DNA of 64,000 bases, from assembly GCA_022825945.1 (NCBI GenBank), contig JAJDVS010000103.1, positions 1 through 64,000 of the forward strand, given 5' to 3'. The stretch comes from Pseudomonadales bacterium (GTDB lineage Bacteria; Pseudomonadota; Gammaproteobacteria; Pseudomonadales; Pseudohongiellaceae). Both the position numbers and the translations under genes were made by a program. Shown here piece after piece: positions 54,787 through 64,000 of the stretch. A model generated the notes under the pieces. It did no database searches and had not been told where the DNA came from. It saw nothing but the letters and a program-made list of their open reading frames with translations. Each line of letters starts with the position of its first letter. Within the stretch, counting starts at the first letter, position 1.

Positions 54787-57009
54787 GCTTCAATGAGGCC
54801 GCCGCCCGAGGGCGGCGGATATGCGACTGGGTTGCACAAATACCAACAGATTCAAGCGACGCTTCAATGAGGCCGCCGCCCGAGGGCGGCGGATATCGGT
54901 CATCAGCGGATTTGGCGAGACTCAACAACGCGCCGCTTCAATGAGGCCGCCGCCCGAGGGCGGCGGATATCTCCCTGTGCGCGTGAAACTCGACGGACGC
55001 GCCGGAGCTTCAATGAGGCCGCCGCCCGAGGGCGGCGGATATGCCTCGTGGCACGGCGTACGGCATCAAATTCCCCCTGCTTCAATGAGGCCGCCGCCCG
55101 AGGGCGGCGGATATGTGCGCTGTTTCGGGCGAATGATTGGGAAATTGTCGCTTCAATGAGGCCGCCGCCCGAGGGCGGCGGATATCTTGGAGCGCGAGTA
55201 CGGCATGCCTTTGCTTAGTGAGCTTCAATGAGGCCGCCGCCCGAGGGCGGCGGATATGGTTCAACTCGCCGAACACTACCGATTCCATTCCGAAGCTTCA
55301 ATGAGGCCGCCGCCCGAGGGCGGCGGATATAAAAAAGGAATACCTAGTAGTAAAAGACTACGGACGGCTTCAATGAGGCCGCCGCCCGAGGGCGGCGGAT
55401 ATCAGACAGGAATAATACTAAATTACCACGAATGCGTTGCTTCAATGAGGCCGCCGCCCGAGGGCGGCGGATATGCCCGTGATCGTTGACGCGTCATCGT
55501 CCTGAGTATGCTTCAATGAGGCCGCCGCCCGAGGGCGGCGGATATACCCAGCCGTCGCGAACAGATATGGGCGCACGTGGGGCTTCAATGAGGCCGCCGC
55601 CCGAGGGCGGCGGATATAAGCTGGTTGCTCGCGTTGCCGCGGTCCACCAGCGAGCTTCAATGAGGCCGCCGCCCGAGGGCGGCGGATATCATCCTCCATT
55701 TCATTGATCGCGTCCTCGATTGAGTCGTCCACCAGCGAGCTTCAATGAGGCCGCCGCCCGAGGGCGGCGGATATGCGCGACTGGCGGGCCAGAATCACCA
55801 CCTACGGGCCGGCTTCAATGAGGCCGCCGCCCGAGGGCGGCGGATATCCACGGGAACAGCGACCTACGAGATTCCGTGGACGGTGCTTCAATGAGGCCGC
55901 CGCCCGAGGGCGGCGGATATCCAGGTCAACGGACCTTTCGCGCCCTTGCTCCTGTTGCTTCAATGAGGCCGCCGCCCGAGGGCGGCGGATATTCGCGAGA
56001 ACCGTGCCCACCCCTTGCAATATGAGCTGCTTCAATGAGGCCGCCGCCCGAGGGCGGCGGATATATCCCACGGATTTGGCAACAGAATCCACGGAAGGCC
56101 AGGCTTCAATGAGGCCGCCGCCCGAGGGCGGCGGATATCGGTTGAATTTATTCCGCTTCATTGTCGGTCTCTTCGCTTCAATGAGGCCGCCGCCCGAGGG
56201 CGGCGGATATGGCGTCGTCGAAAATGGAGAGCCTGTGGCACGAACTGCTTCAATGAGGCCGCCGCCCGAGGGCGGCGGATATCAGGTCTTGGCCAACGAG
56301 GAGGGCGAGGCCGCGATCGCGCTTCAATGAGGCCGCCGCCCGAGGGCGGCGGATATCTCATAGGTCATGGGCACCCCGGCATCCAGCGCGGTGCTTCAAT
56401 GAGGCCGCCGCCCGAGGGCGGCGGATATGTGCGGATTCCGGGTCTTTCCAACGATGAGCTTCTGGCTTCAATGAGGCCGCCGCCCGAGGGCGGCGGATAT
56501 CGTGGCATCGGATGGCACCAGCACCGTGGTCCTGACGCTTCAATGAGGCCGCCGCCCGAGGGCGGCGGATATACCGTCGTGATTCCCGCGAATCTCTACA
56601 CATCGTACGTGCTTCAATGAGGCCGCCGCCCGAGGGCGGCGGATATGTGTCAACCATTTTTCTGCGTTGTTGCACTTTGCTAGCTTCAATGAGGCCGCCG
56701 CCCGAGGGCGGCGGATATTCCAACAATGGAGGATTGGATCAATGACGAATAAATGCTTCAATGAGGCCGCCGCCCGAGGGCGGCGGATATTCATGGTTTT
56801 GGCTATGGACGCATCACACGCGTATGTGCTTCAATGAGGCCGCCGCCCGAGGGCGGCGGATATATGAAATCGCCCGCGCAACGCTCGAAAGCGCGAATCT
56901 CGCTTCAATGAGGCCGCCGCCCGAGGGCGGCGGATATCGTCGTGCTGGTGGACGGCACGACATCCAAATACCTGCTTCAATGAGGCCGCCGCCCGAGGGC
57001 GGCGGATAT
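54787..57009 (-). CRISPR. CRISPR array, 31 repeats and 30 spacers, type I-G
   Basis: Thirty-one 36-bp repeats, identical as far as I can read, beginning GCTTCAATGAGG and ending GGCGGCGGATAT on the plus strand, with an 8-bp perfect palindromic stem (CCGCCGCC/GGCGGCGG) around CGAG. Spacers are 35-38 bp except one of 49 bp (55690-55738). Read on the minus strand the repeat ends ATTGAAGC, the usual crRNA 5' handle, so crRNAs are made right to left from a leader at 57010-57210 beside cas2, and the newest spacers are on the right. The leftmost (oldest) repeat at 54787 shows no decay. The trailer to the cupin start (54679-54786) holds nothing recognisable. Confidence 0.98.
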
Positions 57010-57552: not shown

Positions 57553-59334
57553 TCATCGTGTCAGAAAGTTGGGGTATTCCGGAATTTCGCCGAGCAGGTA
57601 GCGCGCCAGCAACCTGGCCTGCATTTCGAACAGACGGCGATACTCGACCGCATAGCCAAATAGCGGGTGAGTCACTTCCTGGTCCAGGCGGCGTTCGAAT
57701 ATGGCGATGAATCGCTTGCGGCCCTTGTCCGTCAGGTTCACTCCGACCGGAGTTTCGATGAAATCCGATCTGTCGATTTCTCCGTTATTGATCGCGGTGA
57801 TGACGGACGAATCCACTATCAGCGAGCGGAAAGGCTCCATCATGTCCAGCGCCAGCGCGGGACGGCCATAGCGCGGCTGGTGGAAGAATCCGCGAAACGG
57901 GTCGAAGCCGACCGCGGAAAGAGCGACCACGAACGAGCGGGTCAGCATGGAGTAGCCGAAGGAAAGCATGGCATTGACCGGGTCGGTCGGCGGCCGCCGG
58001 TTGCGGCCGTCCATGTTGAATTGCAATTCCGAATCGCCCGTTTGCTTGAGCATTTTGGGGAAAGCCTGGAAGTAATGCGCAGCCGCGGCGCCTTCGAGGC
58101 CGAGCAAGGATTCGATGCTCGCGGCTGTGCCGACTTCGTTCGACAATAACTTCATACTTCGCAGCGCCGGCGCCGCTCCCTCCTTGTCCGTCCAGTTTCT
58201 GCGCAGCAGCACCCGGCCGTTTCTGATCTTCGCCCGCACCCAGCCTTTCGCCAGCCGCAGGCAGGCGGCATCGTCGAAGGAGCTTCGATATTGCGCCGTT
58301 CTCAGTTCCACGTTCGAGTGTCCCGCGCCCATGGAGTGGCCGAGGAACCAGCCTCCGTAAGACTGCCAGGTTATGGGAATCTCGCGCCGCATCAACTCGT
58401 GCAAGGTCGGCGTGGTGACGTAGACATTGCCCATGAGAACCAGTTGCGACACTTCCGCGAGCCGCGCATATACCGGCTCCTCTTCATCCAGCGTGATGGC
58501 CAGCCGGTTGCCCTGCTTGGCCACTTTCGCCCGATTCGCCTGCACGTAGACCGGCAAGGCGTGCGCGCGGCGCACTGCGATGGGACGCACCTCGGCGCCG
58601 CCGGCCCGCAGCAGGTTCACCTCGTCCGGCAGGCAAATGCCTACCAGGGAGCACCGATTGCACTTGGGGCTGTTTTGCAGCGGCGGGGGAATCTGTCCGC
58701 CTTCGACCACCGAGCGCAATGCGCCTATGGATTGTTTCGTCAGCAGCCGCAGGGATTCGTCGAACGGCACCTTCACTCGCTCCCTGGAACCGGCGAAGTA
58801 CAAAATGCCCTCCGGGCAGCGATAGCCGTGTTCCTCCAGCAAGAGACCCTGGGCACAAAGCTGCACGCGCTCCGGGTCGTAGACTTTTTGCTTGATATGC
58901 GGGCGTTTGCCGCGTTTGTATTCCACCGGAACGACTTCGCCGCCGGGAGTCGGCTCGACCAGATCGATCTTCGCGACCAGGTCCAGTTTCGCGGAGGAGA
59001 GTTCGACGGAACGGGCGGGCTTGAGATCTTCCGGTTCCGTGTCCGAGTCAGGTTCAGGCAAAGGCTCGGACTTCTTGTCCACCCGCCGGTGAACGTGACG
59101 GCCTTCCACCGTGTCTTGAGAGTCGGCCCATTCCTTCTGCACCCATTCCAGATACGCCAGCCGCGGGCAGTAGACGAACTCATTGAGTATGCGCGCCGGG
59201 ATAAGCGGGCTTTCAGGGTGCTTGCCGACATCGAGCGGGAGAGAGAGTTGCAGCGGTGGGCTGTCGGACTCTTCGGTTTCACCGAGCAGGTGGTCCGGAA
59301 TGGGGCGGATCATTTCGGTGGGCATCGGCGGCAT
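57553..59334 (-). CDS. cas4-cas1: Cas4-Cas1 fusion protein
   Basis: A 593-residue fusion. The N-terminal Cas4 nuclease (about 45-240) has the iron-sulfur cysteines Cys56 (FVYCPRLA) and Cys225, Cys228, Cys234 (CNRCSLVGIC), and nuclease residues Asp124 and Glu138-Lys140 (VEYK). The C-terminal Cas1 integrase (about 245-593) has Glu414 (GLEGAAAAHYF), His485 (FFHQPRYGRPALALD) and Asp497/Glu500. The fusion is characteristic of type I-G (former I-U) systems, where the Cas4 part selects PAM-adjacent prespacers (TTN in the Geobacter system). The acidic linker at 90-110 is unusually charged. The catalytic residues look intact. Confidence 0.96.
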   Translation of the reverse strand: MPPMPTEMIRPIPDHLLGETEESDSPPLQLSLPLDVGKHPESPLIPARILNEFVYCPRLAYLEWVQKEWADSQDTVEGRHVHRRVDKKSEPLPEPDSDTEPEDLKPARSVELSSAKLDLVAKIDLVEPTPGGEVVPVEYKRGKRPHIKQKVYDPERVQLCAQGLLLEEHGYRCPEGILYFAGSRERVKVPFDESLRLLTKQSIGALRSVVEGGQIPPPLQNSPKCNRCSLVGICLPDEVNLLRAGGAEVRPIAVRRAHALPVYVQANRAKVAKQGNRLAITLDEEEPVYARLAEVSQLVLMGNVYVTTPTLHELMRREIPITWQSYGGWFLGHSMGAGHSNVELRTAQYRSSFDDAACLRLAKGWVRAKIRNGRVLLRRNWTDKEGAAPALRSMKLLSNEVGTAASIESLLGLEGAAAAHYFQAFPKMLKQTGDSELQFNMDGRNRRPPTDPVNAMLSFGYSMLTRSFVVALSAVGFDPFRGFFHQPRYGRPALALDMMEPFRSLIVDSSVITAINNGEIDRSDFIETPVGVNLTDKGRKRFIAIFERRLDQEVTHPLFGYAVEYRRLFEMQARLLARYLLGEIPEYPNFLTR

Positions 59335-59458: not shown

Positions 59459-60388
59459 TCATGCGGTGTGGCGCCGTTTTCCCAGAATCTGACGAGCGCT
59501 CTCACATAGTGAGTTGATGGAAGATACGAGATGCGCCCTGAATCCGGCGTCTTCCACGGTCTTGCCCGCCATTGGCCGGGGAATAAACCGCTGGAGCGTT
59601 TCGAGGAAACTCCGGGAGCCGATGATTTCCTCGCATCCTTCGATAGTCTTGTCCAAAGCCGCAACGTACCGATCGGCGATTTTCCGTTCGACAGCCTTGC
59701 GGGCCGACCGGGCCGCCACGTCTTCGGGAGCGACGTTCCGCCCGAGAATCCACTCGATATCCCAGGCGTCCCGATATCGGGGGTACTCGCGAGTCGCCAC
59801 CGACAAGGGGAACGCGATCAATTTGTCGCTGCAAATATCTCCGACTGACGCGGCGCGGATGGGGAATGGCGCGAATCGGTCCTGAAGCATCGCGTGGCGA
59901 TGCCGGATCGCCGGATACACGATGTCCTCCGGCGCATGTACCCGCTTGTCGATCTCGATTTTGATACGTTGCGTGCCAAGGCCCCGTGTTTTCCCGGCAG
60001 GTCGCGTAACCACTCGCGCGACCCAGCGATCCACCTCTCGCTCGCGGCGACGATCGTTCGGTTGAAATTGTCCGCGCGGTTTGACTTGAACCTCCAGTCC
60101 ATAGCCTCGTCCCAACCTTTCCCGCAGCACCGCTTCGATGTGAACGAGAAACTCGGGGCTGAAAGCCGAGCCTCCTGAAAAATGCAGGTCTTCGCTGAAC
60201 CTCGCGCCGCCGTAGCAAAGCCTGAGGCAGGTGCCGCCCTTGAAAGTCAAATGGCGCAAGATTCCCGCATCGTTCATCGCACCCAGAATTTCGAAGTGCA
60301 GAAGTTCCTTTTCGATGGCTGGGCGGCATCCCGCCAATCCCGGGTCGTCGCGGACAATATACGAAGCGACCGCCAGGAAATCAAGCAT
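59459..60388 (-). CDS. abiEii: AbiEii/AbiGii-family nucleotidyltransferase toxin
   Basis: A 309-residue nucleotidyltransferase of the type IV toxin family, which blocks growth on phage infection. The N-terminal motif is FKGGTCLRLCYGG (50-61) followed by RFSEDLHF (63-70); in most members this reads S-E-D-L-D-F, so the second metal-binding Asp is His here. A downstream KIEIDKR-like strand and the SVGDICSDKLIAF motif agree with the family. The start at 60388 lies within the last bases of the AbiEi gene, giving coupled translation. Activity is uncertain because of the substitution. Confidence 0.85.
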   Translation of the reverse strand: MLDFLAVASYIVRDDPGLAGCRPAIEKELLHFEILGAMNDAGILRHLTFKGGTCLRLCYGGARFSEDLHFSGGSAFSPEFLVHIEAVLRERLGRGYGLEVQVKPRGQFQPNDRRREREVDRWVARVVTRPAGKTRGLGTQRIKIEIDKRVHAPEDIVYPAIRHRHAMLQDRFAPFPIRAASVGDICSDKLIAFPLSVATREYPRYRDAWDIEWILGRNVAPEDVAARSARKAVERKIADRYVAALDKTIEGCEEIIGSRSFLETLQRFIPRPMAGKTVEDAGFRAHLVSSINSLCESARQILGKRRHTA

Positions 60389-60962
60389 TGGCCCGTTCCT
60401 GGATTCCCGCATGCCATTCCGCTACGACTTCCGCGTGAATTTCTTCGTCGACAAGATGCAAATTGCCGGGACGCACCCTGCGCAAGTCATCCAGGGCAAG
60501 TTTCGGGGAAGCGACCCGCAGGCCCAGCCTTTCGTCGAAAACCGTATCGCGCAGGATTTCCAGGTCGCCTCTTCTGGTGTGCGAAAATTCAATGTCGCCG
60601 TAACGAGTCGAATATTTTCCCGCGTTGCCCGTCGTCGCAATGAGATAAACCATGGGGACCTGGCTGATCGAGCCGAATTCCGCAAGAGCCGACTCGTAAC
60701 TCAAATAGCAGAACCGGCGGGGGCGGAGGTTCCGCACGATGTCGCCAATCACCGCGAGCCCCGGGTCCGGCAGCGCCCGGTTCACGAATACGCCTCGGGC
60801 GATTCTCTCAAGCAGCCCGGCCGAGACGATTCGCCGAATGCCCGCATTGAAGGTATTGGCATCGTCGGCCTCAAACAGAAGCCGCAGGCTCTGCGTGCCA
60901 ATGACCGGGAACTGACGGCCCGGCCCCAGCACGAGCACCCGGATTGCGTCCTTCAAAGTCAT
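60381..60962 (-). CDS. abiEi: AbiEi-type antitoxin/transcriptional regulator
   Basis: A 193-residue AbiEi-like protein: an N-terminal winged-helix part (FNAGIRRIVSAGLLERIARGVFVNRAL) for DNA binding and a C-terminal antitoxin domain (RRFCYLSYESALAEFGSISQVPMVYLIATTG). It probably autorepresses the pair and counteracts AbiEii. The ATG at 60962 is chosen over the longer frame because upstream bases are AT-rich non-coding sequence with a TAAAAT -10-like element on the minus strand near 61015. It overlaps abiEii by eight bases. Confidence 0.85.
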   Translation of the reverse strand: MTLKDAIRVLVLGPGRQFPVIGTQSLRLLFEADDANTFNAGIRRIVSAGLLERIARGVFVNRALPDPGLAVIGDIVRNLRPRRFCYLSYESALAEFGSISQVPMVYLIATTGNAGKYSTRYGDIEFSHTRRGDLEILRDTVFDERLGLRVASPKLALDDLRRVRPGNLHLVDEEIHAEVVAEWHAGIQERANA

Positions 60963-61683: not shown

Positions 61684-61893
61684 ATGTCGGACAACGAGCT
61701 AACGAAGGCCATCGAACAATGGCGCAGCCTGCCGATGGAGGAACGCCGGCGCCGGCATCTGGAGGCGATTCCGCGTCATGTAGCCAACTCCATGGCGATG
61801 GAGGGCGAGCCGGTGGACGAGGAATGGCTGCGGGAACGACTCGCCCGCCGCATTCGGCAACTCGGTATATTGAAACCTCCGTCGGCATCCTGA
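61684..61893 (+). CDS. Fic antitoxin (class I, VbhA-like inhibitory helix)
   Basis: A 69-residue charged helical protein. It carries SMAMEG at residues 36-41, exactly the (S/T)-x-x-x-E-(G/N) inhibitory motif by which class I Fic antitoxins push a glutamate into the Fic ATP site. The following gene is a Fic protein lacking such a motif of its own, which supports the pairing. Its 3' end overlaps fic by 70 bases in another frame. Confidence 0.7.
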   Translation: MSDNELTKAIEQWRSLPMEERRRRHLEAIPRHVANSMAMEGEPVDEEWLRERLARRIRQLGILKPPSAS

Positions 61894-62435
61894 GCTATCA
61901 GGAACTCGCCCCTTTGTTGGCTGAGCGAGTAGAAGATGCCGAGATCGAAATTCTGGAGAGAAAATTCACGGACGTTCCTATCTGGGAACTGCTACTGCGA
62001 CTTCATAAGCGGATTTGCGCTGATCTTATCCCGGAGATAGCCGGACGCTGGCGTCTTCGGAATGTTCAAGTGGGTTCGCATGAAGCGCCGCCGTACGAGC
62101 AGGTTCCTGTTCTGATGCACAACTACGTTGCAGACCTTGATGCGAGATTGGCAAGTCTCGCGGACGCCCGCGGCGACGAGGTTATCAACGTCCTTACATT
62201 CGCCGAAGGACAGTTGCTGCACATCCATCCGTTCGACGATTTCAACGGTCGTGTCTCGCGCCTGTTCCTCATCGAACTGCTGTACCGATTGGAACTGCCG
62301 GTGATCGACCCTGCTGCCGCTTCGAAGGAGGAAATTAGGAGCTACTTCGAAGCCTTGCAGGCATACGACCAGCGCGACCCGCGTCCGTTGGTCGAGATAT
62401 GGCGGTACCGCATAGAGCAGAGCGGTTCTCGGTGA
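61824..62435 (+). CDS. fic: Fic-domain protein (AMPylation toxin)
   Basis: A 203-residue Fic enzyme predicted to transfer AMP, or another nucleotide moiety, to a target protein. The catalytic loop is HPFDDFNGR (135-143): catalytic His, metal-binding Asp and anion-binding N-G-R are present; Phe replaces the usual Gly before Asn, a variation seen in other Fic proteins. The ATG at 61824 lies inside the antitoxin gene; a later non-ATG start near 61880 cannot be excluded. Together with the antitoxin this is a toxin-antitoxin cassette placed between the two halves of the CRISPR locus. Confidence 0.82.
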   Translation: MAAGTTRPPHSATRYIETSVGILSYQELAPLLAERVEDAEIEILERKFTDVPIWELLLRLHKRICADLIPEIAGRWRLRNVQVGSHEAPPYEQVPVLMHNYVADLDARLASLADARGDEVINVLTFAEGQLLHIHPFDDFNGRVSRLFLIELLYRLELPVIDPAAASKEEIRSYFEALQAYDQRDPRPLVEIWRYRIEQSGSR

Positions 62436-62471
62436 CATACGTCCTTCTGATTCGAGTCACAACCAACCCTT

Positions 62472-62559
62472 TGCAATGAGGCCGAGGCCGGCGGCCTCGG
62501 AGCGGGCTGTAGTTGGAGCGAAAGCACTTGCCTAACCGCGTCTATTCTTCAATGAGGCC
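62472..62559 (-). ncRNA. Putative crRNA-like regulatory RNA (CreR/CreA type) with two pseudo-repeats
   Basis: Read on the minus strand: a partial repeat GGCCTCATTGAAG (62559-62547, identical to the last part of the array repeat up to its final base), a 41-nt pseudo-spacer (62545-62505), then a second pseudo-repeat with an 8-bp stem CCGAGGCC/GGCCTCGG (62500-62493 with 62489-62482), loop GCC, followed by CCTCATTG. The array repeat has stem CCGCCGCC/GGCGGCGG: sequence changed on both arms, pairing kept. The pseudo-spacer 5' end matches the cas3-side promoter start (62664-62682). The leading pseudo-repeat lacks its stem, and no promoter was confidently identified, so transcription and processing are inferred. 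Confidence 0.6.
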
Positions 62560-62628
62560 AATTCGTGATCGTGGACTACTACATGCATTGGGCAATTCCG
62601 AATGTTCGTAAGTCGCGACTTTTTCTGC

Positions 62629-62656
62629 TTGACTTCCTGAATCCAGCATCCATAAT
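62629..62656 (+). promoter_or_regulatory. Predicted sigma-70 promoter for the cas3-side operon
   Basis: TTGACT (62629-62634), a 16-base spacer and CATAAT (62651-62656), each one base from consensus. The start of transcription should be near 62663. It faces the small gene at 62707 and cas3 at 62887. The region is AT-richer than its surroundings. Confidence 0.7.
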
Positions 62657-62660
62657 GCAC

Positions 62661-62682
62661 TTTATAGAAGTGGTGATGCAAG
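62661..62682 (+). promoter_or_regulatory. Predicted Cascade target: TTT PAM plus 19-nt match to the pseudo-spacer
   Basis: TTT (62661-62663) is followed by ATAGAAGTGGTGATGCAAG, compared with the pseudo-spacer start ATAGACGCGGTTAGGCAAG: 15 of 19 identical, mismatches at 6, 8, 12 and 14. Positions 6 and 12 are flipped out in type I crRNA-DNA duplexes and do not count. Matching stops after position 19, as expected for a repressing rather than cleaving guide. TTN is the PAM reported for a type I-U/I-G system with a Cas4-Cas1 fusion. Confidence 0.6.
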
Positions 62683-62706
62683 AAATTTTTGAGAGGCGTA
62701 CGCAAA

Positions 62707-62880
62707 ATGAAGAAGCTATGCGAGTCAACCAAGATCAGTGTAACCAAAATTGAATCAGTGGTTGTCGAAATTGTGCGCACGGTATCTGCATATCGACCTC
62801 CATCGGCGGATGCACAGACCAAGGAGAAGGATGTGCTCTTGATTGACCGCTTTGATCGAGAAGGTAGTAAGCGAGGATAG
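62707..62880 (+). CDS. Small protein gene directly upstream of cas3 (possible CreT-like or operon leader)
   Basis: A 57-residue frame starting MKKLCESTKISVTKIESVV and ending DRFDREGSKRG, with GAGAGG ten bases upstream. It is the first frame after the predicted promoter, and its stop lies six bases before the cas3 ATG, fitting an operon. I recognise no family. It could be a small component of the cas3 operon, a leader peptide, or a toxin held off by the neighbouring crRNA-like RNA. Codon use is less GC-rich than in neighbouring genes, so it may also be non-coding. Confidence 0.4.
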   Translation: MKKLCESTKISVTKIESVVVEIVRTVSAYRPPSADAQTKEKDVLLIDRFDREGSKRG

Positions 62881-62886
62881 CAGCGA

Positions 62887-64000
62887 ATGACCGCGAACTT
62901 CGACTTCGACCAGGCTTTCGTAGCGCTTACCGGGTTTCCTCCATTTCCTTGGCAGCGCCGGTTGTTCGACCACTATCTGTCCAAGGGTGCTTTGCCATCG
63001 GGGGTTGATATACCAACCGGGTTGGGCAAGACAGCGGTCATGGCGATATGGCTGTTGGCGCGTGCGAAACAAGGATTGTTGGAGCAGGCACGAAACGATT
63101 CTGTGGAGCAGGTCGGACATCAATCGCTACCACGTCGTCTGGTTTATGTGGTGGACCGACGCGCAGTTGTGGACCAGGCCACGAATTTCGCCGAAAAAAT
63201 CCGTAATCGACTTCATTCAAGCCAGCTACTCGAACCGGTGCGTCATGGACTGGGTCTAGACGATGATGGAAAGCTGCCCATCTCAACCTTGCGTGGCCGG
63301 TACATCGACAATCGGGAGTGGATGGAAGATCCAAGTGCGGCGGCAATCATAGTCGGCACCGTGGATATGATCGGTTCCCGCCTGTTGTTCGAGGGTTATG
63401 GCGTATCGAGGAAAATGAGACCGTTCGCCGCTGGGCTATTGGGGTGCGACACGTTGATGATGCTGGATGAGGCACATCTCGTGCCGCCCTTCAGGAATCT
63501 GCTCAAGGACATTGAGAGAGGCTCGAACAGTGATATTTTCGGGCCGCAAACCAAAACAGACCGAAAGGTGGTCCCGCCATTCAGGATGCTGCCACTTTCA
63601 GCGACCGGACGGGAAGATCGTGCGTCCAGTAACAGCAGCGTTTTCCAGCTTCAGCCCGAAGACTACGACAATGAAATAGTCAGTCAGCGGCTACGGGCTC
63701 CCAAGCGACTGACTATTATCGAATCGACGGAACTCGTTTCTGAGTTGGCTGAGCGGGCATGGAGTCTGGGGTCGGGCTCAAGTCCAAGGAGAGTGCTTGT
63801 TTATTGCAACAGCCGTGAGGATGCCGTCAAGGTAAAGGCCAATATCGATAAGCGATTGAATAAGCATGGCGATCATTCTGAGTTACTGGTAGGCGCGCGC
63901 CGGGTGTACGAGCGCGAAGACTTGGCCAGATGGCTTCGCGATACAGGTTTTCTCGGCGATACGGATGGGCCTCCCGAACACCCGCTATTTCTGATTGCCA
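62887..64000 (+). CDS. cas3: Type I-G CRISPR helicase-nuclease Cas3, N-terminal part
   Basis: The first 371 codons of a helicase that runs off the right edge. Motifs: WQRRLFDHYLSKG (Q-motif-like), Walker A PTGLGKTA (43-50), DEAH box LDEAHLVPPF (Asp194-His197), motif III LPLSATGRE, and the start of the second RecA domain with VLVYCNSREDAV. The early Walker A (residue 44) leaves no room for an N-terminal HD nuclease, so HD is expected at the C-terminus, as in type I-G Cas3. GAGG lies ten bases before the ATG. Csb1, Csb2 and Cas8/Csx17-type genes should follow outside the window. Confidence 0.9.
   Translation, partial: MTANFDFDQAFVALTGFPPFPWQRRLFDHYLSKGALPSGVDIPTGLGKTAVMAIWLLARAKQGLLEQARNDSVEQVGHQSLPRRLVYVVDRRAVVDQATNFAEKIRNRLHSSQLLEPVRHGLGLDDDGKLPISTLRGRYIDNREWMEDPSAAAIIVGTVDMIGSRLLFEGYGVSRKMRPFAAGLLGCDTLMMLDEAHLVPPFRNLLKDIERGSNSDIFGPQTKTDRKVVPPFRMLPLSATGREDRASSNSSVFQLQPEDYDNEIVSQRLRAPKRLTIIESTELVSELAERAWSLGSGSSPRRVLVYCNSREDAVKVKANIDKRLNKHGDHSELLVGARRVYEREDLARWLRDTGFLGDTDGPPEHPLFLIA

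Follow-up and report, generated by a model that had tools for sequence, protein, structure and literature searches.

A type I-G CRISPR complex very probably dampens its own production through a crRNA-like unit beside the effector operon

In Streptococcus pyogenes, the cas genes are reportedly subject to autorepression by a guide RNA, tracr-L, a natural single guide of Cas9 said to have been described by Workman et al. in 2021. The RNA proposed below would likewise be a guide that represses its own cas genes, whereas tracr-L belongs to a type II system and is derived from the tracrRNA, not from CRISPR repeats. The Racr solitary repeat units (PMC10651486) also give ectopic repeat-like RNA, but these are virus-encoded inhibitors and not promoter guides. 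According to the reviews PMC13131331 and PMC12737573, CreR (Liu et al. 2023) is a solitary mini-CRISPR of two degenerate repeats, located beside cas genes, whose guide is complementary to a limited extent, next to a PAM, to the promoter of the operon it accompanies, with no obvious toxin; all of these traits recur in the unit analysed here. Limited promoter complementarity of CreR is documented for types I-B, I-E and V-A (PMC13131331), and CreR is elsewhere named for type I and V-A in general. The CreA RNA of CreTA, found in haloarchaeal I-B and Acinetobacter I-F systems (PMC9458426, PMC10097628), shares with our unit the psiR1-psiS-psiR2 anatomy and a partial match beside the PAM of the subtype in which the sixth position is unpaired. 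Unlike CreA, which represses a toxic RNA (PMC9458426, PMC10097628), our unit matches a promoter that belongs to the effector operon, and no toxin could be assigned to it.

Within the DNA analysed (the window; 64,000 nucleotides of a Pseudomonadales contig, JAJDVS010000103.1), the minus strand carries the adaptation half of a type I-G system, whose effector operon begins on the plus strand (Table 1). The array repeat, ATATCCGCCGCCCTCGGGCGGCGGCCTCATTGAAGC, whose 3' end is CCTCATTGAAGC, is unchanged in all 31 copies, and the crRNA strand is the minus strand. Type I-G Csb2 cleaves 4 nt past the hairpin and leaves an 8-nt handle (PMC9638904), which by the same rule is ATTGAAGC for the crRNAs of the array. 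On the same contig, cas3g is followed by cas8g/csb3, cas7g/csb1 and cas5-6g/csb2; the I-G gene set, consisting of Cas3g, Csb1/Cas7g, Csb2/Cas5-6g, a csb3-type Cas8g and the Cas4-Cas1 fusion, is present, and the CRISPR system of the window is of type I-G. The 57-aa ORF preceding cas3g gave no family match and has no homologue in other I-G loci. The Fic gene and its small partner also occur as a pair in the I-G loci L121, L089, L259, L120, L078, L072, L067 and L091 (Fic 43-58% and partner 39-72% identical by tblastn), and this pair, which adjoins the crRNA-like unit, therefore looks like an I-G accessory module. The same genome carries a second, different Cas3-like gene (G000:C88:14798-15421), and may therefore hold a second CRISPR system.

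Table 1. Features of the type I-G locus, numbered from the first nucleotide of the window
Feature	Position	Strand	Remarks
CRISPR array	54787..57009	-	31 identical 36-nt repeats
cas4-cas1 fusion, I-G type	57553..59334	-	
AbiEii, toxin-antitoxin-like	59459-60412		between adaptation half and effector operon
Fic and small partner, toxin-antitoxin-like	61684-62435		between adaptation half and effector operon
psiR2, degenerate repeat	62470..62504	-	8-bp hairpin at 62482-62500; CCTCATTG at 62474-62481
Predicted mature crRNA-like RNA, 76 nt	62478..62553	-	handle, guide and 3' hairpin, on the assumption that Csb2 cleaves like that of Thioalkalivibrio I-G
Pseudo-spacer (guide), about 41 nt	62505..62545	-	geometry as in the array
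psiR1, degenerate 5' half-repeat GGCCTCATTGAAGA	62546..62559	-	compared with the end of the array repeat
Predicted 8-nt crRNA handle ATTGAAGA	62546-62553	-	by the I-G Csb2 cut rule (PMC9638904); identical handle in G456 and G749
Sigma-70-like promoter of the effector operon, TTGACT-16-CATAAT	62629..62656	+	predicted +1 near 62663
PAM and protospacer	62661..62699	+	TTT at 62661-62663, protospacer from 62664; pairing mainly at positions 1-19
Small ORF, 57 aa	62707..62880	+	first frame 3' of the cas3g promoter
cas3g, 938 aa	62887..64000	+	extends past the end of the window

Outside the array and adjoining the type I-G effector genes, a solitary mini-CRISPR occupies positions 62470-62559 of the minus strand and consists, in that orientation, of GGCCTCATTGAAGA (psiR1), ATAGACGCGGTTAGGCAAGTGCTTTCGCTCCAACTACAGCC (the pseudo-spacer) and CGCTCCGAGGCCGCCGGCCTCGGCCTCATTGCAAA (psiR2). 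The cleavage context and the hairpin are retained in psiR2. Its stem (CCGAGGCC/GGCCTCGG versus CCGCCGCC/GGCGGCGG in the array) is altered on both arms, yet completely paired, and is followed by CCTCATTGCAAA; after CCTCATTG comes CAAA where the array has AAGC. The distance from the handle to the next CCTCATTG is 64 nt, as in the repeat-spacer-repeat of the array, and 57-64 nt in the homologous units. An earlier note on this DNA had described two repeat-derived halves around a 41-nt pseudo-spacer on the minus strand, one of them with an 8-bp stem changed on both arms but still fully paired, and comparison with the array repeat bore out both statements. No convincing hairpin was seen in psiR1 of the window, and 5' processing must therefore differ. 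A promoter scan of the window recognised no minus-strand promoter for the crRNA-like RNA, and the folding energy of the whole RNA was uninformative, being no better than that of shuffled sequences.

The pseudo-spacer finds its match at the head of the effector operon. The target at 62664, ATAGAAGTGGTGATGCAAG, directly preceded by TTT (the I-G PAM is TTN; PMC9638904), is identical to the guide at 15/19 positions, with mismatches at 6, 8, 12 and 14; when the first 20 nt of the guide are set against 62664-62683, position 20 joins these. Restricted to the positions at which a type I guide can pair, the score is 14/17 (paired-position mismatches 8, 14 and 20). None of 2000 dinucleotide shuffles of the region, and none of 2000 spacer shuffles, attained this value, so that the match exceeds chance. 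Apart from the guide itself, this is the only site in the 2.64-Mb genome where guide and PAM are matched within 3 mismatches. The target start coincides with the predicted +1 of the promoter leading into the 57-aa ORF and then cas3g-cas8g-cas7g-cas5/6, and no second sigma-70-like promoter was found in 62300-62900. Our alignment thus agrees with the earlier note, which had reported a 15/19 match after TTT, with mismatches at the unpaired type I positions 6 and 12, beginning at the predicted start of a near-consensus promoter; its estimate that such a match would arise by chance about once per million positions is arithmetically correct. The Fic gene was discarded as the guide's target, since the sole genomic target is the cas promoter. 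Just 5' of the -35 box of this promoter, positions 62610-62621 form a perfect palindrome, AAGTCGCGACTT, a possible protein operator.

We then considered other genomes. A scan with Cas3g as the single protein gave one locus, ending just upstream of cas3; whole genomes were searched with Cas3g or Cas7g and the unit pattern, and six further units were found adjoining type I-G cas operons in six other species. In five of these six loci, a TTN-flanked match particular to the unit lies at a distance of 70-130 nt, ahead of the cas genes of that locus: G026 and G247 (each 15/17, PAM TTT), G749 (14/17, PAM TTC, paired-position mismatches 8 and 9), G174 (13/17, PAM TTT) and G456 (12/17, PAM TTC). G456 alone is modest, as 9 to 19 of 2000 shuffles reach its score. 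In all six pairs, dropping the PAM requirement still leaves the TTN-flanked site as the best match in the vicinity of the unit. The cleanest test among the units is G174, which was retrieved with a pattern blind to targets and whose target was sought only afterwards; within the first 15 nt, the mismatches of this target fall at exactly 6 and 12. For the sixth unit, G209, no recognisable cas target was found in the locus or the whole genome, and a match inside an ABC-transporter gene was rejected as chance. This unit (L067:6494-6550) has good repeats, and a promoter-like sequence, TTGAAG-16-TATAAA, extends across its handle and pseudo-spacer. The AAGC that follows CCTCATTG or CCTCATTA is lost from psiR2 in 7/7 units, which are therefore apparently built to yield one guide, and the psiR2 stem is kept with both arms altered in the window, G026 and G247. 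No such unit was seen in most I-G loci sampled, nor in those on plasmids of Cereibacter, Thermus, Azotobacter and Rhodothermus. Seven units among about forty genomes with I-G hits are a minimum and not a rate, because several upstream regions end at contig ends and the motif requires CCTCATTG-like repeats. Viral contigs, scanned with a pattern for regulatory units, yielded chiefly matches due to chance, and these were set aside.

Guides and targets differ between lineages, yet they change together. Five pairs were aligned together and G174 was added as the sixth: positions 1-5, 7, 10, 11, 13 and 15 match in 6/6 pairs (5/5 before the addition), position 6 in 0/6 (0/5) and position 12 in 1/6 (1/5), while matching fades past about position 20-25 in all six. 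The I-G Cascade structure presents five of every six bases (PMC9638904), and the per-position pattern, as read from these alignments, equals the footprint that would be expected of such a Cas7 backbone. As a control, ordinary array spacers (168 spacers x five regions) gave 0/840 scores of at least 14/17 and 11 of 12-13, and the guides scored at most 10 against the promoters of other lineages, with the exception of the same-genus pair G456/G749, whose regions and guides are homologous. The earlier note had proposed a CreR/CreA-type circuit in type I-G and had named covariation of pseudo-spacer and promoter in homologous loci as one of its tests; that comparison spoke in its favour, with six units matching their own cas-side promoter region beside a TTN PAM, and these covarying units, together with the I-G gene set, support the proposal.

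The same data bear on two other origins of the unit. It could be a decayed remnant, next to cas3g, of the end of a former array, with a match due to chance; degenerate repeats are normal at such ends, and psiR1 of the window has no hairpin. This origin is nevertheless very unlikely: the array lies 5.5 kb off, beyond other genes, the stems have been kept by compensatory change, the match statistics, the PAM and the 6-nt periodicity hold in six loci, and the covariation contradicts it. Less probable still is a self-targeting spacer that was taken up from this very locus of the host and then decayed so as to avoid autoimmunity. The guide does match the host genome beside a PAM, but acquired self-spacers begin as full 36-nt matches, while in the six pairs the pairing fades past about 20-25 with positions 1-5, 7, 10, 11, 13 and 15 kept. 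As the proximal positions are kept while distal pairing fades, the proximal match is being maintained rather than eroded.

The units fall into two layouts. In the divergent one (window, G456 and G749), the handle is ATTGAAGA and the target lies 72-120 nt from the unit; putative promoters 5' of the unit, TTGACA-17-TATCTG in G456 and TTGTCA-17-TAAACA in G749, were identified by eye and were not listed by the consensus scans. In the sense-leader layout (G026, G247, G174 and G209), the handle is ATTGAAGC and the unit is located in the leader of the cas mRNA, so that one transcript would yield both the guide and the cas message. The first cas frame after the unit is cas3g in G026, cas7g in G247 and a truncated cas7-like ORF in G174. 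Directly downstream of the G174 unit there is also a Cas3-Fic-Cas8 fusion, an 1866-aa frame (L259:251-5851) comprising Cas3g (1-850), Fic (918-1103) and Csx17/Cas8g (1115-1847), whose Fic domain is of the same family as that of the window. A strong hairpin stands right after the predicted cas promoter in G456 (L068:2678-2707) and in G749 (L069:5285-5318), of unrelated sequence in these two members of one genus.

In the window, both cas3g and the 57-aa ORF lie downstream of the same promoter, and the promoter reads first this ORF, which lacks a family match. The unit might accordingly be read as a CreTA/CrePA-like addiction module, in which the guide keeps in check a small protein or RNA that is toxic (the 57-aa ORF or the leader) and loss of Cascade poisons the cell; CreA units share the anatomy (PMC10097628), and in G456 and G749, too, the predicted promoter is followed by small ORFs and the strong hairpin. 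Against this, the 57-aa ORF has no counterpart in the other loci, the cas operon is driven by the same promoter, and in G026 and G247 no more than about 20 nt separate the unit from the first cas gene, which leaves no room for a toxin and therefore favours cas autorepression. We regard addiction as improbable, and equally so a combined role, in which the promoter under guide control would also drive a small toxic product and the unit would serve as thermostat and as addiction module or anti-CRISPR alarm.

We thus favour, with a probability of roughly 0.87 on the sequence comparisons above, a CreR-type crRNA-like RNA by which the type I-G system represses its own cas genes. That the CRISPR complex restrains its own production by means of the unit is very probable because the guide partly matches its own promoter, and because six other species have the unit, five of them with a matching promoter. 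In the proposed mechanism, (i) the mini-CRISPR would be transcribed from the minus strand, (ii) Csb2 (Cas5-6) would cut psiR2 after its hairpin, giving an RNA with an 8-nt handle, the guide and a 3' hairpin, as in a normal crRNA, (iii) the loaded I-G Cascade, pairing only in part (about 15 of the first 19 nt, each sixth base being left out), would bind the site that follows TTT at the start of the promoter of the cas3g operon, and (iv) RNA polymerase would be blocked, the pairing being insufficient to trigger Cas3 cutting. The sequences themselves show the anatomy, the PAM, the uniqueness of the match and the covariation; we infer transcription, processing, binding and repression from the biochemistry of I-G (PMC9638904) and from CreR in I-B, I-E and V-A (PMC13131331). 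By a titration logic, plentiful free Cascade would hold the effector genes down, and their repression would ease once Cascade is consumed by array crRNAs or anti-CRISPR proteins.

The locus shows the marks of CreR, namely a mini-CRISPR of degenerate repeats, a PAM-flanked match to the cas promoter and co-evolution of guide and target. Compared with CreR as presented in the reviews, the effector differs, being of type I-G (a Cas5-Cas6 fusion, no Cas11 and a 5' handle that no Cas5 subunit holds), and so do the two layouts, divergent with ATTGAAGA and sense leader with ATTGAAGC. A full-text literature search, whose scope did not extend to the primary CreR paper (Liu 2023) and the Shmakov 2023 survey, returned no I-G example; as far as could be checked, this would be the first CreR in type I-G, of a kind already known by design. 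Its presence, with clear coevolution of guide and target, in a minimal and structurally odd effector supports the view of cas autorepression as a general design, and the six natural guide-target pairs offer a gauge of the minimal pairing for I-G Cascade to bind without cutting. Under the model, I-G cas expression is predicted to rise in response to anti-CRISPRs and to crRNA load.

Two further loci deserve mention. On a Cereibacter plasmid (CP031754.1; L102:1650-3063), an I-G operon has a divergent WYL-domain regulator and an XRE regulator at the position held by the unit in other loci, possibly protein control in place of RNA control. In a phage-like contig (L203:915-1045, and L216; IMG/VR), a solitary mini-array of I-G type lies just 5' of a gene; its spacer would translate as VDGRGYAG and the neighbouring gene reads FIDGRGYAGK after TTC, as if, judging from these sequences, the mini-array were directed against this gene in a competing phage.
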